DNA of 39,040 nucleotides from a virus. The DNA lies in IMG/VR virus record IMGVR_UViG_3300002460_000084, positions 1-39,040 of that record; one strand, written 5' to 3'. Under the pieces are notes generated by a model. The model was given only the letters and a program-made list of their open reading frames with translations. It ran no database searches and was not told where the DNA came from. A program made the position numbers and the translations under genes. Positions 7,326 through 32,223 of this stretch are shown here, one piece after another; position 1 is the stretch's first letter, and every line of letters begins with the position of its first letter.

Positions 7326-8057
7326 ATGGAAAGTAAAATCTGCATTGTATGTGGTAAGGTTTTCTACAAAAAACTAACAACAAGTAAGAAGGTTTGGTTT
7401 GGATCAAAATACTGTTCTCATAGTTGTCAACACATAGGAATAACCAAAAATGATAGAAATAGAATCTGTCTTGTGTGTAAAAAACATTTTCTTTGTGCGC
7501 CCTCTAACTTGAATGCCAAGTTCTGCTCAAGAGAGTGTATGGGAAAAGGTGTAGATTACACAAAACGTCCTCAATATATACCAGAAGCTCACGATGGTTC
7601 TTTAATAAAATGTGCGTGTGGTTGTGGAACTTCCATACCAATGTATGACAGGAAATTCCGTAGGAGGAAATATGTCGTTGGACATACTATGATAGGGAAA
7701 AAGATAATAAGGAAACAGATTACAATAGATAGACATAGGGAAACCATGATGAAAAATGGTAAATTAAGGGGCAAAGGTCATTGGAATTGGAGGGGCGGTA
7801 TTACAGATGAAATAAGACTGTTACGCCATACTCCACAATACAACAACTGGCGTTTTGCAGTGTACAAAAGAGACAAATATCATTGTATTTATTGTAATAA
7901 ACATTGTCATGAAAAGGACATAGTAGCTCATCACATAGAGGATTTTAAGAGCAATATAAAACTTAGATACGATATTGGTAACGGTGTAACCTTATGCAGG
8001 AAATGTCATCTTAATTTACATAGGAATTCGATCCAACTACAAGTAACACTCTTTTAG
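7326..8057 (+). CDS. HNH homing endonuclease with zinc ribbons
   Basis: 243 aa. Two Cys-rich zinc-binding modules occupy the N-terminal third (CIVCGKVF then YCSHSCQ; CLVCKKHF then KFCSREC), and a third Cys cluster lies at CACGCG. A linker with GKGHWNWRGG resembles NUMOD3-type DNA-binding repeats. The C-terminal nuclease reads CIYCNKHCHEKDIVAHHIEDF followed by NGVTLCRKCHLNLH, giving the H-N-H catalytic core between two CxxC zinc pairs. It sits between virion genes with no functional link to them, as expected for a free-standing homing endonuclease. Two more HNH genes occur in this window. Confidence 0.9.
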   Translation: MESKICIVCGKVFYKKLTTSKKVWFGSKYCSHSCQHIGITKNDRNRICLVCKKHFLCAPSNLNAKFCSRECMGKGVDYTKRPQYIPEAHDGSLIKCACGCGTSIPMYDRKFRRRKYVVGHTMIGKKIIRKQITIDRHRETMMKNGKLRGKGHWNWRGGITDEIRLLRHTPQYNNWRFAVYKRDKYHCIYCNKHCHEKDIVAHHIEDFKSNIKLRYDIGNGVTLCRKCHLNLHRNSIQLQVTLF

Positions 8058-20459: not shown

Positions 20460-21458
20460 TTAAGACTCCATTAAACCTAAATACTCCTCTTTCGTTATAG
20501 AATATTTCCATGCCATACATTCATCGGGATCGTGCGTTTTTCCAATCTCAGGATCAACACCACTAACGTAAACTCTTTCGGTTGATGGACAAGCGTACTT
20601 TAAAAAATATGCGGGTTGTGAAAATACTCCATCTATGAGGAACAATTCGTTACCTTTACCTGATTTACTTATCAAAATGGCGTTTGAGTCTTCTAATAGT
20701 TTCTCTGCCCCATATACCTTTAATGTAGCCATTCTTTGTTCTATGTTAATAAGTCCCATAACTTCCTTAAATGTCATTTTTCTTTGAACCACGGAAAACC
20801 ATAAATCACGGTCAAATTTTATTCCATGTAACCAGTACGTTTCTTTGTCCGCAAACTTTAAAGCATATTGAGTCTCATTGTGTAATCTTTTATCAAGTAA
20901 GGAGACTTCGGGGAAAGGTAATAAATATAATGTCTTTTTCGTCATAAAAATATATGCGTTTCCAGCATTTACAATATCTTTTATTGCTTCTATTTTATTC
21001 TTATTTCTTTGTAGTACTTTTAATTGAGGATAAAATTCATTAATAAATAATATCCAATTATTTTCGTAGAATTCAAAAATTGACGAAAACTCTGACCTAA
21101 GCTCTGACCAAAGCTCTGACGAAAACTCTGACGAAAACTCTGACGAAAACTCTGACGAAAACTCTGACAAAAACTCTGACGAAAGCTCTGACGAAAGCTC
21201 TGACCAAAGCTCTGACCAAAACTCTGACCAAAGCTCTGACCAAAACTCTGACCAAAGCCCCTCTGACCTAAGCTCTGACGAAAACTCTGACGAAAGCTCT
21301 GACAAAAACTCTGACCATTTACTAATCACCCTAACTTGTCTTTTCTTTATTAACGCTTCATTTAGTTTATTCCCAGCAGATTCTAAATCTCCTCTTTTAC
21401 CCAAAAGACTAAATTGGCTTCTCAAGTAGTTAATTCTATTCTCTTTAGTATTTTCCAT
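20460..21458 (-). CDS. DUF6745-like protein with a 4-residue repeat helix
   Basis: 332 aa. Residues about 48-126 are some 19 copies of a Ser-Glu-(Phe/Leu)-(Ser/Trp/Arg) unit (e.g. SELWSEFWSELWSE). The remaining part has LHNETQYALKFADKETYWLHG (two motifs, LHNE and YWLHG), a MATLKVYGAEKLL helix and a C-terminal CPSTERVYVSGV, DECMAWK block. These motifs and the preceding W/S-rich repeat fit the DUF6745 family as I remember it. Molecular function is not known. It directly precedes a conserved 103-aa partner gene upstream in the operon. Confidence 0.6.
   Translation of the reverse strand: MENTKENRINYLRSQFSLLGKRGDLESAGNKLNEALIKKRQVRVISKWSEFLSELSSEFSSELRSEGLWSEFWSELWSEFWSELWSELSSELSSEFLSEFSSEFSSEFSSEFSSELWSELRSEFSSIFEFYENNWILFINEFYPQLKVLQRNKNKIEAIKDIVNAGNAYIFMTKKTLYLLPFPEVSLLDKRLHNETQYALKFADKETYWLHGIKFDRDLWFSVVQRKMTFKEVMGLINIEQRMATLKVYGAEKLLEDSNAILISKSGKGNELFLIDGVFSQPAYFLKYACPSTERVYVSGVDPEIGKTHDPDECMAWKYSITKEEYLGLMES
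21080..21314 (-). repeat. 12-bp tandem repeat, about 19 copies
   Basis: The plus strand reads GACSAAARCTCT repeated about 19 times, coding on the minus strand for SE(F/L)(S/W/R). One unit is 15 bp rather than 12 near 21255-21269. Unit differences cluster in neighbouring copies, as expected from slippage or unequal exchange. Confidence 0.85.
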
Positions 21459-22893: not shown

Positions 22894-22922
22894 AATATAC
22901 TAGATATACAAACAGTTGTCAA
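22894..22922 (-). promoter_or_regulatory. early minus-strand promoter with operator-like sequence
   Basis: On the minus strand TTGACA (22917-22922), 17 nt and TATATT (22894-22899). The region 22904-22923 is identical over 20 bp to 26949-26968. The core ACAACTGTTTGT has 4-bp inverted arms (ACAA/TTGT), as a dimeric repressor might bind. A divergent promoter for the plus-strand genes begins at 22937. Confidence 0.75.
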
Positions 22923-22936
22923 GGGGTATATTTCTG

Positions 22937-22965
22937 TTGACTACGTTCTATATAAGTAGTATTAT
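22937..22965 (+). promoter_or_regulatory. divergent promoter of the 22973 operon
   Basis: TTGACT (22937-22942), 17 nt, TATTAT (22960-22965). The start codon of the first gene is 7 nt further, so the transcript is probably leaderless. It shares an intergenic space of about 110 bp with the minus-strand early promoter. Confidence 0.7.
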
Positions 22966-22972
22966 TTAACTA

Positions 22973-23149
22973 ATGAGAAGAACTTGCCTGTACTCAACTA
23001 TTGGGGAATGTAAATACGATAATATGGTAGATACCAGAAAACACGCTTATTCCTATAGAAAAGCCAATGGAAAAACTGTTTATTGGCACTATCTTTGTTT
23101 CTTGAAAGACACTAAGGAGTTATTTGAGGGACTTTTGAAAAATGTCTAA
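22973..23149 (+). CDS. 58-aa protein of unknown function
   Basis: Starts MRRTCLYSTIGECKYDNMVD and ends KELFEGLLKNV, basic, with four Cys residues but no regular zinc pattern. It has no ribosome binding site; the -10 box of a strong promoter is 7 nt upstream of the ATG. The stop overlaps the next gene's start by 8 nt. Function not recognised. Confidence 0.55.
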   Translation: MRRTCLYSTIGECKYDNMVDTRKHAYSYRKANGKTVYWHYLCFLKDTKELFEGLLKNV

Positions 23150-23477
23150 TATATTTAATTTAAGTTTCCAACAAGAAACATACATTTTTATTCTTCTACA
23201 AACTACTTTATTTGTGCTTTTTGGTTTAATCCTTTATAGGTTTATAATGACTTTGTTAAGACCTTTTATGTTAAGGGGCTGTAAGCATGAAGATGTACTT
23301 ATTGAAAAGGACATAGATGTTACGTTTAATACAGTTTGTTATAAACATATTTGCAAAAGATGTGGATGCATTAAAACCGTATATCCAATGGAAAGTTACA
23401 GAACCAAAAAGGGTAGAGGCGTTGGAAGGATACAGAAAGGACTTAGACAAAAACTTTCGAAGCAAAATGGAAAGTAA
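23142..23477 (+). CDS. membrane-anchored small protein with zinc-type Cys cluster
   Basis: 111 aa. A membrane segment lies at about 13-39 (IFILLQTTLFVLFGLILYRF). The soluble part has Cys residues at 47 and in VCYKHICKRCGC (about 65-76), a probable zinc site. The tail is basic (KKGRGVGRIQKGLRQK). It overlaps the preceding gene by 8 nt. Overlap with the downstream frame is 11 nt if that gene starts at 23467. Function unknown. Confidence 0.5.
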   Translation: MSNIFNLSFQQETYIFILLQTTLFVLFGLILYRFIMTLLRPFMLRGCKHEDVLIEKDIDVTFNTVCYKHICKRCGCIKTVYPMESYRTKKGRGVGRIQKGLRQKLSKQNGK

Positions 23478-23781
23478 CGTATATCGTTACCTTATTGAAT
23501 GTCATCCGGATTTAAAACTTGTTGAATACGAGGCGCATAGATTTAATCATAAAGATGGGTTACCGATGGGATTTGTTTATACACCAGATTTTAGGTGTAC
23601 TACACACAACAACAAACAATTTTATATTGAAGTTTGCCCTGTGTTAGATGGTTATCACAGACATAATTACGATGTTATGAGGAAATATAGACCCGATATT
23701 AAACTACACGTCGTAAATAGTGAGGTCTATGCAGATATAAAGAAGAGATTTTCTAAGAAGACACGGGGTTGGGAATATTAA
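23467..23781 (+). CDS. possible PDDEXK-type nuclease-like protein
   Basis: 104 aa from the ATG at 23467 (a longer frame from 23317 would overlap the preceding gene by 160 nt). It contains an early Glu in EYEAHRF, VYTPDFRC (about 37-44) and FYIEVCP (52-58), an arrangement like the E...PDF...ExK core of small endonucleases. However, the expected catalytic Lys is a Cys here, so activity is doubtful. No strong ribosome binding site is visible, and it overlaps the upstream gene by 11 nt. Its 3' end overlaps the convergent HNH gene by 29 bp. Confidence 0.45.
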   Translation: MESNVYRYLIECHPDLKLVEYEAHRFNHKDGLPMGFVYTPDFRCTTHNNKQFYIEVCPVLDGYHRHNYDVMRKYRPDIKLHVVNSEVYADIKKRFSKKTRGWEY

Positions 23782-24235
23782 GTCTTGCAAACTCTCCAAA
23801 ATATTTCTTGTATGCATTATCTACAGCTTTAGCCGCCTTTAGTTTGGTTTTATAAATACCTAAGAAAATACTTTTTTGATTGTGTTCTATAGTGGCTGTC
23901 CATCTATCCACAAATTTTCTTTTTATTTTAGAAACTCCCTTAAAACCACTTGTATTATTTTTTCCTATCCTTCTATTCATTGAATTTTGTTGAATTGTAC
24001 ATATACGGAGATTGCACCGTCTATTATCCAATAAATCCCCATTTATGTGATCAACAATCATATTCTTTGGCGGGTTCAAGATATATCTATGTAAAAATAG
24101 GTGTTTTCTTCCTACTACGTCTACATATTTTCTACCATTATTATTCTGTAATCGCCAATTATATTTGAAAACCTTTTCTTTGTCTTGGGCATCTATCCGA
24201 AAATAAACATCTTTTTTATCTAGTTTTATAAGCAC
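23753..24235 (-). CDS. HNH homing endonuclease with AP2 DNA-binding domain
   Basis: 160 aa. Residues 50-85 hold the HNH core (LHRYILNPPKNMIVDHINGD, then NRRCNLRICTIQQN). Residues 95-155 resemble the plant-type AP2/ERF domain found in phage HNH enzymes (GFKGVSKIKRKFVDRWTATI, IFLGIYKTKLKAAKAVDNAY). It starts with GTG at 24235, 7 nt from an extended -10 box, so it may be leaderless. It is a free-standing selfish gene, as are the HNH genes at 7326 and 31690. Confidence 0.88.
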   Translation of the reverse strand: MLIKLDKKDVYFRIDAQDKEKVFKYNWRLQNNNGRKYVDVVGRKHLFLHRYILNPPKNMIVDHINGDLLDNRRCNLRICTIQQNSMNRRIGKNNTSGFKGVSKIKRKFVDRWTATIEHNQKSIFLGIYKTKLKAAKAVDNAYKKYFGEFARLNIPNPVSS

Positions 24236-24282: not shown

Positions 24283-24311
24283 TTGGTGTTTAGATAATAT
24301 GGTGATATAAT
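24283..24311 (+). promoter_or_regulatory. promoter candidate for a small plus-strand ORF
   Basis: TTGGTG (24283-24288), 17 nt, TATAAT (24306-24311). The predicted start is about 8 nt before the ATG at 24326, so the leader is very short. Confidence 0.4.
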
Positions 24312-24325
24312 ATGTTGACTATAAT

Positions 24326-24496
24326 ATGAAACGAGCTTATCTTGTTTCTAGTTTGACCATTTTGTTTATCTCTTATTTATATCAAACCACAAGAAGTATG
24401 GGGTTTAAAATATGTTTTGTTGTGAGGGATAAAATGCCAGCTTTAATTCCTTTATTTAAACTCATTGGAATATATCCAAAAACTATAATTGGATGA
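24326..24496 (+). CDS. candidate 56-aa membrane-anchored peptide
   Basis: The frame encodes an N-terminal hydrophobic helix (MKRAYLVSSLTILFISYLY) and a second hydrophobic part (MPALIPLFKLIGIYP). No ribosome binding site is seen; a -10 box lies 14 nt upstream. It sits in an otherwise non-coding interval upstream of two hairpins. It may be a genuine small gene or a chance frame. Confidence 0.35.
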   Translation: MKRAYLVSSLTILFISYLYQTTRSMGFKICFVVRDKMPALIPLFKLIGIYPKTIIG

Positions 24497-24511: not shown

Positions 24512-24544
24512 TGCTGAAAGGGCATTAGGCATTACTTTTCAGCA
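24512..24544 (+). other. 8-bp hairpin upstream of the bidirectional terminator
   Basis: TGCTGAAA (24512-24519) pairs perfectly with TTTCAGCA (24537-24544) over a 17-nt loop. A TATAAT at 24499-24504 lies just upstream, so a short plus-strand RNA ending at the 24555-24591 terminator is possible, but there is no good -35. Confidence 0.4.
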
Positions 24545-24554
24545 TAATTTTATT

Positions 24555-24591
24555 ACACAAAAGCCCCTCCATTAAAGAGGGGCTTTTGTGT
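24555..24591 (+). terminator. strong bidirectional terminator
   Basis: ACACAAAAGCCCCTC (24555-24569) pairs perfectly with GAGGGGCTTTTGTGT (24577-24591) across a 7-nt loop. The A-rich left arm and T-rich right arm make it work in both directions. It closes the structured RNA on the minus strand and could end plus-strand transcripts from 24283. Confidence 0.9.
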
Positions 24592-24760
24592 TTCCTGTCC
24601 AGAATTTAGTTGATATAGGCTGGTTATTAATCAAAACCTCTGCACATTCATTTTGATTAGCGTAACCTCGTATGTGCATACTTATGGATTCCATTAGGAT
24701 AACGACCTAAATATTATCCCATTTGTGAGACTCTCAGCATATTATGTCTCCACCTATATC
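24555..24760 (-). ncRNA. candidate structured RNA with pseudoknot, no class recognised
   Basis: The minus-strand promoter at 24767-24796 predicts a start at about 24760. The RNA's 5' end would form a closing stem with 24611-24619 (TGATATAGG pairs with CCTATATCA at 24753-24761). Inside are: a 9-bp stem 24628-24636 with 24651-24659, extended by GGTTA/TAACC (24622-24626 with 24663-24667); a loop-to-downstream pairing TGCACAT (24641-24647) with ATGTGCA (24672-24678); GGATAA/TTATCC at 24697-24702 and 24714-24719; and GAGAC/GTCTC at 24727-24731 and 24746-24750. It ends at the bidirectional terminator. About 205 nt, no ORF. Class not identified. Confidence 0.6.
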
Positions 24761-24766
24761 AGTAAA

Positions 24767-24796
24767 ATTATATCATCAAAAATAGATACTTGACAA
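24767..24796 (-). promoter_or_regulatory. minus-strand promoter of the structured RNA
   Basis: On the minus strand TTGTCA (24791-24796) and TATAAT (24767-24772) are 18 nt apart. The -35 box overlaps the -35 of the divergent plus-strand promoter at 24790, so the two promoters should compete or be co-regulated. Confidence 0.65.
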
Positions 24797-24817
24797 ACAC
24801 TTAAACGAGTATACTAT
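24790..24817 (+). promoter_or_regulatory. promoter of the replication operon
   Basis: TTGACA (24790-24795), 16 nt, TACTAT (24812-24817). The predicted start is about 24824, giving a leader of about 25 nt before the ATG at 24850. A TGACAA overlap makes the -35 shared with the minus-strand promoter. Confidence 0.7.
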
Positions 24818-24849: not shown

Positions 24850-25089
24850 ATGAATAAAACTGTAATATCAAGGACAGAAAAATCTCACCAAGACTTATTA
24901 AATAAGGTTTTAAGTAAAAAACTAGATATTTCTAAGATCACGCAACTATCTTGGAGTATCTCCCAGGTAGATAGAATGTATCCTGTTTCCGGAACTGATG
25001 AGGATTTGGAAGCATTGTTAAATTCTTATGAAAGAATTTGGGATGATTTTATTTATTTAGCCCAAAAGGAATTGGGTTTGACGGATTAA
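24850..25089 (+). CDS. small protein at the head of the replication operon
   Basis: 79 aa, helical, acidic (for example DEDLEALLNSYERIWDDFIY). The ATG lacks a Shine-Dalgarno sequence; two short in-frame or overlapping ATGs lie just upstream. It precedes the replication initiator by 6 nt. No domain is recognised; it does not resemble a repressor. Confidence 0.5.
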   Translation: MNKTVISRTEKSHQDLLNKVLSKKLDISKITQLSWSISQVDRMYPVSGTDEDLEALLNSYERIWDDFIYLAQKELGLTD

Positions 25090-25095
25090 ACCCTA

Positions 25096-25926
25096 ATGAA
25101 TATCGGTTACATAGCCCTACACAGAAAGATTTTAGATTGGGAATGGTATAAAAACACCAATGTTGTACGAGTCTTTTTTCATCTATTAATTAAAGCCAAC
25201 TTTGAAAAGAAAAAGTGGATGGGTATAGAAATTATGAGAGGAAGTTTTATAACTAGCTATGCAAATTTATCTTTTGAAACGGGTTTATCAATACAACAGG
25301 TACGAACTGCGATAAATAAGCTAAAATCAACAAGCGAAATAACAAGCATAGCAACAACCGAATACACCGTCATAACGGTGGTAAACTATGACGAATATCA
25401 GAATACTAACAAGCATAGCAACAAACGAGCAACAAACGAGCAACAAACGAGCAACAAACGAGCAACAACTACTAATAAAGATAATAAAGATAATAAAGAT
25501 AATAAAGAGAGAGAACACACTCTGGATACTCTTATAGATAAGAAGCATTGGAAACCCAAGCCGTATGCACCACAGGCAGTCCGTAGAATTGACGACGGAC
25601 TGCACCACGTGCCCAATAAGGATACACATATTAAGGATACACATATAAGGGAGAGAGAGTCCACACTCACGGTAGCACCTCTTAAAAGAAATAATATCGG
25701 TAAAGAAACTTTTGAGAGCATAGCTGACCGTTATGAAGTGCCTACCGATTTTGTTGAGGATTGTTGGGATTCTGCGCAAAACTGGCTTGATGCTAACGCT
25801 AAGGTAAAAAAGGATTATAAGGCCTTTTTATCTAATTGGGTCAAACGTGAACGTGCAAGTTATATTTTGAATGCTAAAAAATTACAAACCAGAAGAGGAG
25901 GTGTTTTCGATGCAAGAACTAAATAA
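25096..25926 (+). CDS. replication initiator / helicase-loader-like protein (O/DnaD type)
   Basis: 276 aa. Residues 1-100 form a winged-helix-like domain (YIALHRKILDWEWYKNTNVV; TGLSIQQVRTAINKLKST) of the type found at the N-terminus of phage replication proteins. A low-complexity linker (108-138) is encoded by DNA repeats that look like an origin. The C-terminal domain (200-260) has SIADRYEVPTDFVEDCWDSA and DYKAFLSNWVKRE, as in replisome-organiser proteins. It likely binds the origin and recruits the host helicase. The stop overlaps the next gene by 17 nt. Exact family not proven. Confidence 0.72.
   Translation: MNIGYIALHRKILDWEWYKNTNVVRVFFHLLIKANFEKKKWMGIEIMRGSFITSYANLSFETGLSIQQVRTAINKLKSTSEITSIATTEYTVITVVNYDEYQNTNKHSNKRATNEQQTSNKRATTTNKDNKDNKDNKEREHTLDTLIDKKHWKPKPYAPQAVRRIDDGLHHVPNKDTHIKDTHIRERESTLTVAPLKRNNIGKETFESIADRYEVPTDFVEDCWDSAQNWLDANAKVKKDYKAFLSNWVKRERASYILNAKKLQTRRGGVFDARTK
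25417..25469 (+). repeat. 11-bp tandem repeats (iteron candidates) in the initiator gene
   Basis: Four full copies of AGCAACAAACG (25417-25427, 25428-25438, 25439-25449, 25450-25460) and a partial fifth. The unit is not a multiple of three, so the protein repeat appears only each 33 bp. A further related copy of TAACAAGCATAGCAACAA lies about 70 bp upstream (25340-25357) and again at the start of the array. A one-helical-turn period is typical of initiator-binding iterons. Confidence 0.75.
25473..25508 (+). repeat. 9-bp AT-rich repeats, possible DNA unwinding element
   Basis: Four exact copies of TAATAAAGA lie at 25473, 25482, 25491 and 25500, directly after the iteron array. They contain only one G each. 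Such AT-rich tracts beside iterons are the usual melting site of phage origins. They encode the NKD repeats of the initiator's linker. Confidence 0.7.
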
Positions 25927-28390: not shown

Positions 28391-28575
28391 AAAAACTTGT
28401 GTCTTGCCCAAACTGTGAAAAGAATGGGAGGAAAGAAATACTTGGAGAAATAGATAATGACAATAACTTCTCAATTATGAGATATTCAAATCAATATACA
28501 AAGATAATAAGTGATAGTTTTGAGGTAATGTGTGGGGTATGTGGTGAGGTAATATTTTACAGAAGGAAGCAATGA
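28387..28575 (+). CDS. zinc-ribbon small protein
   Basis: 62 aa with two CxxC pairs, CPNC (about 7-10) and CGVC (49-52), a classic zinc ribbon spaced by a mostly polar segment. It overlaps the ParB-like and the epimerase genes by ATGA. The first pair resembles the zinc knuckle at the end of the preceding protein. Function unknown. Confidence 0.5.
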   Translation: MKKLVSCPNCEKNGRKEILGEIDNDNNFSIMRYSNQYTKIISDSFEVMCGVCGEVIFYRRKQ

Positions 28576-29504
28576 AAGATAAAATAGCACTGATAACAGG
28601 TTTGAATGGATTTTTGGCAACAAATTTGGCCGGAGCTTTAATTGAAAAGGGTGTTAAGGTTGCGGGCATTCCAAGAGAAACATTAGCAAATCCGATGCTT
28701 CTTGATGATTTTGTTTCCGGTCTTTCCCCAAACTATATATTTCATTTTGCAGCGTATGGAAATCATTATGATCAAGATGATGATGATGAGATAGTTTCAA
28801 CAAATATATTAAAAACATATTTTCTTTTTACTGCGACAAAGTATATAGATTATGAGTGTTTTATAAATGTTTCAAGTTCATCTGTTTATGGTGCAAAAAG
28901 CACCCCAATGAAAGAGGATATGTTACTTGAGTCAGATACTATGTATGGTGTAACAAAGATAGCGAGCGAATCCATTGCAAGAGCTTTTGCTAAAAAATAT
29001 AACAAGCCGATTATTAATATCAGACCTTTTAGTGTATATGGACCAGGAGAGGCGGGGCATCGTTTCATACCCACATTAATAACAGCAATTAAAAAAGAAG
29101 AGATGGAATTTACACTCGATCCAAATGCCTCACATGATTGGATATATGTTGAGGATTTTATAAACGGTATATTTGCGGTCATTGCCAATGCAAAAGATTT
29201 CATAGGTAAATCCGTGAACATAGGAACTGGAAAACAACATACAAATAAAGAGGTAGCAGAAACTTTAGTATCTATTGCCAATGCCAAAAGCCCAATGAGG
29301 TTAAAAGAAACCACATTGTTAAGAAGTTATGATACTACGAACTGGATAGCTGATACATCGTTATTAAGACATGTAGGTTTTAGACCAAAGTTCACATTAA
29401 AAGAAGGGTTATCAAATACTTATGAGTATTATAATAATTTAAAACCAAGGAATGATCTTGATCGTGCTATGGAACAATCTTTAAGAATGGTTAATGCATT
29501 ATGA
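28572..29504 (+). CDS. NAD-dependent epimerase/dehydratase (extended SDR)
   Basis: 310 aa, normal length. ITGLNGFLATNL (8-19) is the GxxGxxG-type NAD site. NVSSSSVYG (99-107) and YGVTK (125-129) give the catalytic Ser/Thr and YxxxK. RPFSVYGPGE (151-160) is the typical follow-up motif of nucleotide-sugar epimerases/dehydratases. It likely modifies a nucleotide sugar. It is followed with 4-nt overlap by two transketolase pieces, so all may work on one sugar pathway feeding the glycosyltransferases at 4440-6450. The product is not known. Confidence 0.88.
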   Translation: MKDKIALITGLNGFLATNLAGALIEKGVKVAGIPRETLANPMLLDDFVSGLSPNYIFHFAAYGNHYDQDDDDEIVSTNILKTYFLFTATKYIDYECFINVSSSSVYGAKSTPMKEDMLLESDTMYGVTKIASESIARAFAKKYNKPIINIRPFSVYGPGEAGHRFIPTLITAIKKEEMEFTLDPNASHDWIYVEDFINGIFAVIANAKDFIGKSVNIGTGKQHTNKEVAETLVSIANAKSPMRLKETTLLRSYDTTNWIADTSLLRHVGFRPKFTLKEGLSNTYEYYNNLKPRNDLDRAMEQSLRMVNAL

Positions 29505-30148
29505 TTGTAAATAAGGATTTGAAAAGAAGAATAATTGAAATTTCATATAAACATAAACTTTCTCATTTAGGCAGTTGTTTGACTACCGTTGATTTAATAA
29601 AGGAAATATACGATGAAAAAAACGATGATGAAAAGTTTGTGCTATCTGCGGGGCATTCAGGATTAGCGTTGTATGTGGTATTAGAAAGTATTTATCCAAG
29701 AGTAGATGCGGAAGAATATATAAAAAGAGATGGAATACATCCTGATAGAAATAACGAAAGTGAAGAATTTATAGATTGTTCAACAGGCTCACTGGGGCAT
29801 GGATTACCAATAGCTATAGGTATGGCATTATCCGATAGAAATAAAAATGTATACTGCATGATAAGTGATGGCGAATGTGGAGAAGGCTCAATAAGCGAGT
29901 CTTTAAGGATAATGGCAGAGCATGAGATAAATAATCTATATGTATATATTAATGATAACGGTTATTCAGCATATGATAGAACAGTAAACAGAGTACGTTG
30001 GTTGTTATATTCTTTTCCTTCTTTGCATTCCAACATGAATCATAAAATAACAAATTGTGATTACCTACCTTTTCTTAAAGGCTTGGAGGGACATTATCAT
30101 ATTATGAATGAAAATGAATATGATTTTGCGTTAGGAATACTAGGATGA
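29501..30148 (+). CDS. transketolase N-terminal (TPP-binding) subunit
   Basis: 215 aa. STGSLGHGLPIAIGMAL (94-110) and SDGECGEGSISES (122-134) are the TPP-magnesium motif regions of transketolase, and INDNGYSAYDR (150-160) continues the metal site. Full transketolases carry three domains in about 630 aa; here only the PP domain is present. The following gene 30309-30833 supplies the Pyr domain, with a 55-aa gene between. Overlaps are ATGA, so a heteromeric two-subunit enzyme is expected. Confidence 0.87.
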   Translation: MIVNKDLKRRIIEISYKHKLSHLGSCLTTVDLIKEIYDEKNDDEKFVLSAGHSGLALYVVLESIYPRVDAEEYIKRDGIHPDRNNESEEFIDCSTGSLGHGLPIAIGMALSDRNKNVYCMISDGECGEGSISESLRIMAEHEINNLYVYINDNGYSAYDRTVNRVRWLLYSFPSLHSNMNHKITNCDYLPFLKGLEGHYHIMNENEYDFALGILG

Positions 30149-30312
30149 AATCAGCTGAGTTCAATAAATTAATAGATGATGTGATTGAAATATTATGGGA
30201 AATGGATGCTGTTGAAGTTCCATATGGAGGTGGTATTAGAGTATCGTATTCAGGGGATGAGTTAAAAACTGCAGTTGCAAGAATAAGAGCATTGGGGGCG
30301 GTTAAACAATGA
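30145..30312 (+). CDS. 55-aa gene between the transketolase subunits
   Basis: Begins MKSAEFNKLIDDVIEILWEM and ends GDELKTAVARIRALGAVKQ. It overlaps both neighbours by ATGA, so its place between the subunits is likely deliberate or recent insertion. Small, mixed, without a recognised fold. It may be a third component of the complex or an unrelated gene. Confidence 0.55.
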   Translation: MKSAEFNKLIDDVIEILWEMDAVEVPYGGGIRVSYSGDELKTAVARIRALGAVKQ

Positions 30313-30833
30313 ACCCAAAAGAAAGATTAAAAAATTATCCATTGCATGAATCTATACGAGGTTATTTTGGTTATGAACTTTATAAACATATGGAAAGAAA
30401 TAATGATACATGGCTTGTGTCCATAGATCTAGGCTATGGACTTTTCAACGCCCACTTTGAGGACTTTCCGGAGAGGTGCATCAACACGGGTGCAGCGGAG
30501 GAATCCGCTCTTGACATTTGTGTAGGTCTTGCACTTTCTGGAAAGCTCCCAGTGGTCTACAGTATCACACCATTTCTTTTGTGGAGAGCTGCCGAAGTAA
30601 TAAGGCTTTACATAGATCATGAAAATATACCTGTAAAGCTTATTGGTAGTGGGAGAGATAAGGACTATTCAATAACTGATGGGTTTTCCCATGACGCTAC
30701 TGATGCGAAGGATTTACTTGCTTTGTTTCCAAATATCGCTGAATATTGGCCTGAATCAAAGGAGGAAATTGCATGGGTAGTAAAGCAGATGTTGGACAAC
30801 GGCTATCCTACGTTCGTATCGCTTAAGAGATAA
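30309..30833 (+). CDS. transketolase Pyr-domain subunit
   Basis: 174 aa. VSIDLGYGLFNAHFEDFPER, then INTGAAEESALDICVGLALS (58-77), where the Glu in GAAEES (E64) is the likely cofactor-activating Glu of the Pyr domain. GSGRDKDYSITDGFSHDATD follows with the conserved DGxSHD segment, and the protein ends with PTFVSLKR. The C-terminal third domain of full transketolases is absent. Together with 29501-30148 it should form the active site at the subunit interface. Two-carbon transfer to a sugar is predicted. Confidence 0.85.
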   Translation: MNPKERLKNYPLHESIRGYFGYELYKHMERNNDTWLVSIDLGYGLFNAHFEDFPERCINTGAAEESALDICVGLALSGKLPVVYSITPFLLWRAAEVIRLYIDHENIPVKLIGSGRDKDYSITDGFSHDATDAKDLLALFPNIAEYWPESKEEIAWVVKQMLDNGYPTFVSLKR

Positions 30834-31689: not shown

Positions 31690-32223
31690 ATGCCTAGCGG
31701 TGTTTATAGGAGATCTTTACAAAATAAATTAAATATAAGTAAAGCCTCTATGGGAAGAACTCCATGGAACAAAGGAAAAATTGGTATATATAGTGATGAG
31801 ACTAGATATAAAATGGGGGCTAGTTTCAGGGGCAAAAAACAACCAAAACTAGCTGAATTTAACAGAAAAAAGATTTTTACTGAAGAATTAAGAAGGAAAA
31901 TGTCTTTAAGACAAAAGGGTGAGAAGGGTTCGAATTGGCGAGGAGGGGTTGGTATAGTTAATGTAAAGATCAGAAATTCTATTGAAGGTAAACTATGGCG
32001 TGAGGCAGTTTTTGCTAGGGATGGTTGGATTTGTCAAAAGTGTTTAATAAAAGGTGGAGTTCTTAGAGCACATCATATTTATAGCTTTAATAAATATAAT
32101 AATATGCGATTTGATATACATAACGGCGTGACATTATGCAATAAGTGCCATAAAGAGTTTCATTCTAAATATGGTGTGAGAGATAATAATTTGGGGCAGT
32201 GCGACAAATGGCTACTGAGATAA
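31690..32223 (+). CDS. HNH homing endonuclease with NUMOD3-type repeats
   Basis: 177 aa. SKASMGRTPWNKGK and SFRGKKQPKLAEFNRKK, with KGEKGSNWRGG, are NUMOD3-like DNA-binding pieces. The HNH core is RDGWICQKCLIKGGVLRAHHI followed by NGVTLCNKCHKEFH (CxxC pairs and catalytic His), here split for length. It lies between terminase small and large genes, starting 1 nt after one and overlapping the other by 16 nt. Homing endonucleases often sit beside terminase genes. Confidence 0.88.
   Translation: MPSGVYRRSLQNKLNISKASMGRTPWNKGKIGIYSDETRYKMGASFRGKKQPKLAEFNRKKIFTEELRRKMSLRQKGEKGSNWRGGVGIVNVKIRNSIEGKLWREAVFARDGWICQKCLIKGGVLRAHHIYSFNKYNNMRFDIHNGVTLCNKCHKEFHSKYGVRDNNLGQCDKWLLR

Follow-up and report, generated by a model that had tools for sequence, protein, structure and literature searches.

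A predicted small RNA gene back-to-back with the replication genes of an uncultured bacterial virus

The 39,040-bp record of an uncultured bacterial virus was analysed along its whole length (hereafter the window). A 615-bp gap separates a minus-strand HNH endonuclease gene from a block of rightward genes, and the element that sits in this gap is best explained as a small RNA gene that is autonomous and specific to this phage lineage, ordinary in kind and new in sequence. We hold this reading with about even confidence. Transcription by host RNA polymerase would begin on the minus strand near 24760 and end at the terminator at 24555-24591, giving an RNA of ~205 nt in which a closing stem, P1, joins the 5′ part to the 3′ part.

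The case for a separate transcription unit begins with its two ends. The RNA promoter, on the minus strand at 24767..24796, consists of a -35 box TTGTCA (24796-24791), an 18-nt spacer and an extended -10 TGA-TATAAT (24772-24767); it scores 11/12, with TGN preceding the -10. The first-pass annotation had proposed this same TTGTCA/18 nt/TATAAT promoter, and it was indeed found on the minus strand at 24796-24767. The window holds eight promoter-like sites scoring at least 11/12, and only at the RNA promoter is the site then followed by a closing stem of at least 8 bp. From the promoter spacing the RNA is predicted to start near 24760, which is where P1 begins, as had been claimed. At the other end, 160-200 nt downstream in the unit, a strong bidirectional intrinsic terminator (24555..24591, acting on both strands) is built from two perfect 15-nt arms, 24555-24569 and 24577-24591, which bears out the earlier description of a perfect bidirectional terminator; its pairs have a probability of about 1 in the fold ensemble. 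Promoter and terminator thus agree with an autonomous minus-strand unit, whose transcription we infer from these signals. On the plus strand, two consecutive terminator-like hairpins span 24512-24591, with ends at 24548 and 24590, and probably also end the rightward transcript of the genes at 23142-23781.

On the far side of the promoter, the rightward replication block (24850..25926) opens with a 79-aa ORF of unknown function (24850-25089, plus strand), followed by a DnaD-like helicase loader (25096-25926, plus strand; phrog_2514, E 4e-32). The GC-skew turns at ~23 kb, and this turn together with the divergent gene order places the element at the early/replication hub of the genome. The replication block has its own divergent promoter at 24790..24817 on the plus strand, with a -35 box TTGACA (24790-24795), 16 nt and a -10 TACTAT. 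The -35 boxes of the RNA promoter and the replication promoter overlap in the palindrome TTGACAA. Because the -35 is shared, the two promoters would exclude each other: polymerase probably cannot occupy both simultaneously. The RNA unit may hence counterweigh, damp or time transcription of the replication genes, in a manner similar to lambda pO-oop. In addition, the folded RNA may persist and act in trans on a host or phage target; within the phage genome, its loops are no more complementary to gene starts than shuffled sequences are.

The lambda comparison is one of layout. In lambda, pO is oriented against pR and lowers pR transcription, and loss of pO harms replication (PMC3985674); the pO-oop-tO unit yields a leftward RNA that ends at a hairpin terminator, and this OOP RNA is an antisense RNA to cII, with which it shares an overlap of 52 bases (PMC5869508). 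Like OOP, the RNA predicted here is a short leftward transcript beside replication genes, with its own promoter opposing the rightward transcript and a hairpin terminator (PMC5869508, PMC3985674), and the sequence signals give it an autonomous promoter and terminator opposite replication genes. Unlike OOP, it overlaps no annotated gene: the ORF lists hold no antisense overlap with a regulatory gene, and no credible gene lies opposite 24555-24762. The lambda promoters are convergent, whereas here they stand back-to-back on a shared -35, and the RNA predicted here is, at about 205 nt, a long one with several helices. Since the antisense overlap of OOP is absent, we do not claim the element as an OOP family member. 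The trans-acting phage small RNAs PreS (LPR1) and VpdS offer a second comparison, being likewise phage-encoded, small and tied to the control of phage replication, but they are shorter, at about 50-88 nt (table in PMC12197685), against ~205 nt for the element, which has no Rfam match.

The predicted fold centres on a structured core (24611..24761, minus strand) closed by P1, in which 24761-24752 pairs with 24620-24611 over 10 bp, 9 of them Watson-Crick; the 9-bp closing stem proposed in the first-pass annotation is therefore present. P1 is the informative part of the fold. A stem of 9 bp from the 5′ end arises in 0.25% of shuffles, and a 9-bp stem in a window the size of the start site occurs at 0.66% of random window positions. 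The folding energy of the whole transcript lies far below that of shuffles (z -6.9), mostly due to the terminator; without the terminator, the core (24606-24762) retains a moderate z of -2.7, and the core without P1 only -0.6. Folded from the plus strand, the core does slightly worse (-35.0 vs -40.7 kcal/mol for the minus strand). Within P1, three minus-strand hairpins are predicted: P2 (24727..24750; 5 bp, pair probability 0.97-0.98), P3 (24695..24721; 9 bp, 0.77-0.94) and P5 (24623..24667; 5 bp, an internal loop and 10 bp under a 12-nt loop, about 0.8). P2 and P3 correspond to the two further hairpins described earlier, while P5 is the internal helix with an internal loop, counted here as 5 + 10 bp in place of 14 bp.

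The proposed pseudoknot fares less well. The loop-to-downstream pair of 7 bp exists as complementarity between TGCACAT on its 5′ side (24672..24678, minus strand) and ATGTGCA in the P5 loop on its 3′ side (24641..24647, minus strand), but a complementary pair of 7 bp arises somewhere in 54% of shuffles, so that TGCACAT/ATGTGCA is at chance level. Only 4 nt lie between the TGCACAT strand and the foot of P5, a hairpin of 15 bp, and the strand would need to span this helix to pair with the loop; on this steric argument, the pair and P5 look mutually exclusive, being hard to form together. A nested fold in which the 7-bp helix replaces P5 is only 1.9 kcal/mol worse. The pair is therefore at best an alternative helix, and two alternative folds would fit the calculations as well as a pseudoknot does. 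With the modest core z, a crossing pair at chance level and P5 in competition with it, the compact pseudoknotted RNA of the first-pass annotation is weakly supported; the fold as a whole is plausible and unproven. Its most ambitious extension would make the element the first of a new class of phage RNAs. The closed core of several helices would alternate between two nested folds, one with P5 and one with the TGCACAT/ATGTGCA helix, and in this way control either a short leader peptide of its own or a protein partner at the replication switch. We consider this improbable.

Two readings dispense with a stand-alone RNA and take the same stretch as coding or as DNA. Neither a long ORF nor a protein homologue occurs within the RNA unit, so the earlier statement that no ORF explains it stands in that respect, but two small ORFs lie inside it. 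The first is an 8-codon ORF, MLRVSQMG (24714..24740, minus strand), with the Shine-Dalgarno AGGTGGAG at 24755-24748; P2 contains part of that Shine-Dalgarno together with the ATG. The second, of 40 codons (24572..24694, minus strand), has no Shine-Dalgarno, runs into the terminator and ends in its loop. A pseudogene reading in which one stop and one frameshift were allowed gave no family match. The unit could be a short mRNA or leader, in which AGGTGGAG and the ATG at 24740 yield an 8-residue peptide, or re-initiation translates the 40-residue ORF, while the fold controls access through the sequestering of the Shine-Dalgarno by P1 and P2. The ATG lies ~20 nt from the predicted start, and its anti-SD pairing of -7.4 kcal/mol is stronger than at 95.6% of non-start ATGs and within the range of real phage genes, although ~4% of random ATGs have an equally good score. 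The good Shine-Dalgarno of the 8-codon ORF, in a phage that puts such sites to use (e.g. at the capsid gene at 1298), makes a translated leader a real rival. By a phase-specific composition score the 40-codon ORF is comparable to real genes, but false ORFs elsewhere can reach the same range, and searches of PHROGs, Pfam and phage records returned no relative of it. Overall, we regard a translated leader as unlikely, and somewhat more so the proposal that control is exerted at the level of DNA. There, the inverted TGATATAGG repeats that form the P1 arms, together with other copies of TGATATA, would be operator or origin sites between the divergent promoters, and the RNA fold would be incidental. 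The inverted repeat (24603-24619/24753-24769) does reach beyond the start site, TGATATA occurs five times in the 615-bp island vs 0.4 expected, and the GC-skew turn and the helicase-loader gene are close by. However, some 7-mer reaches five copies in 15% of island shuffles, so that the repeats are not significant across all 7-mers; no iteron array was found, and the near-consensus promoter and the terminator that flank the element favour a transcript.

The least probable of the accounts, in our judgement very doubtful, treats the unit as an attenuator, a 5′ leader controlled by its terminator, that would regulate the HNH gene downstream together with the leftward operon. The HNH-type homing endonuclease gene (23753..24235, minus strand) does lie past the terminator, 320 nt downstream of the element on the same strand, and an alternative fold is close in energy. 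Against this, the gene lacks an evident Shine-Dalgarno, no convincing antiterminator was found to oppose a terminator that pairs with a probability of about 1, and two rightward genes intervene between the element and the leftward operon. That operon, moreover, has a separate 11/12 promoter-like site at 22922, and the RNA unit is hence not needed as its leader. The site, TTGACA-17-TATATT on the minus strand, belongs to a second divergent promoter pair at 22894-22965, whose plus-strand partner is TTGACT-17-TATTAT at 22937 (10/12); the pair likely drives the leftward operon and the genes at 23142-23781. The sequence TGGTGATATAATATGTTGA at 24300-24328 is similar to the 5′ portion of the RNA, with 16/19 positions identical to TGGAGACATAATATGCTGA of the minus strand; two copies of TATAATATG also occur there, 14 nt apart. 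A type III toxin-antitoxin RNA of the ToxI kind, which would have tandem pseudoknot repeats ahead of a toxN-like gene, was also considered and rejected: the element contains no tandem repeats, and the downstream gene is an HNH endonuclease.

Returning to the small RNA gene, its novelty was assessed by searches for known families and for relatives. Rfam 15 (4227 models) gave 0 matches at gathering score in the whole window, as the first-pass annotation had anticipated in recognising no known class. At a relaxed threshold only weak matches appeared nearby, mostly anchored on the terminator, and the sequences of relatives returned nothing at either the gathering or the relaxed threshold. ARAGORN found no tRNA or tmRNA, and blastn against phages and plasmids gave chance-level stretches only. 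The only other copy of the element, in contig L003 from the same virus population, is identical and so offers no covarying pairs. A DNA pattern scan of viral contigs for P1/P2 and the pseudoknot junction recovered the identical population and five chance matches, and the latter were rejected by the RNA covariance model. No homologue was found in >130 related or seed-matched viral loci, nor in 113 genomes from the class to which Pelotomaculum, source of the nearest prophage, belongs; the covariance model R1, run over the related loci and the same 113 genomes, returned nothing credible, with a best non-self score of 17.4 bits (E 0.9). Since R1 was built from a single sequence and misses diverged relatives, these empty searches are weak evidence of absence. 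Structured candidate RNAs from comparative genomics rest on many compared sequences (e.g. PMC2864571); the element resembles them in its multi-helix fold, its lack of a long ORF and its origin in phage or metagenome DNA, but differs in being known from one sequence, and single-sequence RNA analyses have drawn explicit caution (PMC11234323). The earlier ranking of the element as the strongest candidate here for something undescribed is right in so far as nothing similar was found, but small RNAs restricted to one phage lineage are already familiar as a kind.

Relatives of the virus itself do exist. Its terminase has relatives at 55-75% identity, most of whose contigs stop short of the early region, and the closest cellular match is a prophage terminase (43%) in a Pelotomaculum genome. 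One relative, L019 (66%), clearly covers the early region, and there the helicase loader is opposite in orientation and a different structured leader is present. This leader, at 2502-2584 of L019 (minus strand), lies directly upstream of the helicase-loader gene and is strongly structured (z -7.5 for 2492-2656); in it, the 9-bp pair AAACTTAGG/CCTAAGTTT crosses GTGCAG/CTGCAC and the terminator-like GGGGAATGTG/CACGTTCCCC-TTATTTTT. It has no Rfam family, has the appearance of an attenuator that forms either a pseudoknot or a terminator ahead of the replication gene, and is possibly more interesting than the small RNA element itself. In another relative, L020, a strong bidirectional terminator hairpin stands upstream of the terminase gene, at 1250-1420.

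Several features elsewhere in the window deserve record. Three ORFs in this one small genome resemble free-standing HNH endonucleases (7326-8057, 23753-24235 and 31690-32223); the family comparison covers the one at 23753-24235 only. A 332-aa protein encoded at 20460-21458 (minus strand) carries a long stretch of SEFWSEL/SELSSEF-type repeats in its N-terminal half, and its PHROG match is very weak. At 28572-30833, an epimerase-like gene is followed by two transketolase-like halves, as read from the translations; the same order is kept in relatives L005 and L019, an unusual cargo adjoining packaging genes.

What the sequence shows directly is the promoter, the terminator, the shared -35 and a predicted fold, and a small RNA gene beside the replication block is a credible reading of it. 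If the fold is under selection, the element would represent a new RNA family, which one sequence cannot say. If the element is transcribed, it would add a replication-linked small RNA gene to a phage group of which hardly any relatives have been cultured. It would also show, in clean form, one -35 box serving both an RNA gene and a replication operon, an arrangement in which promoter competition is directly testable.
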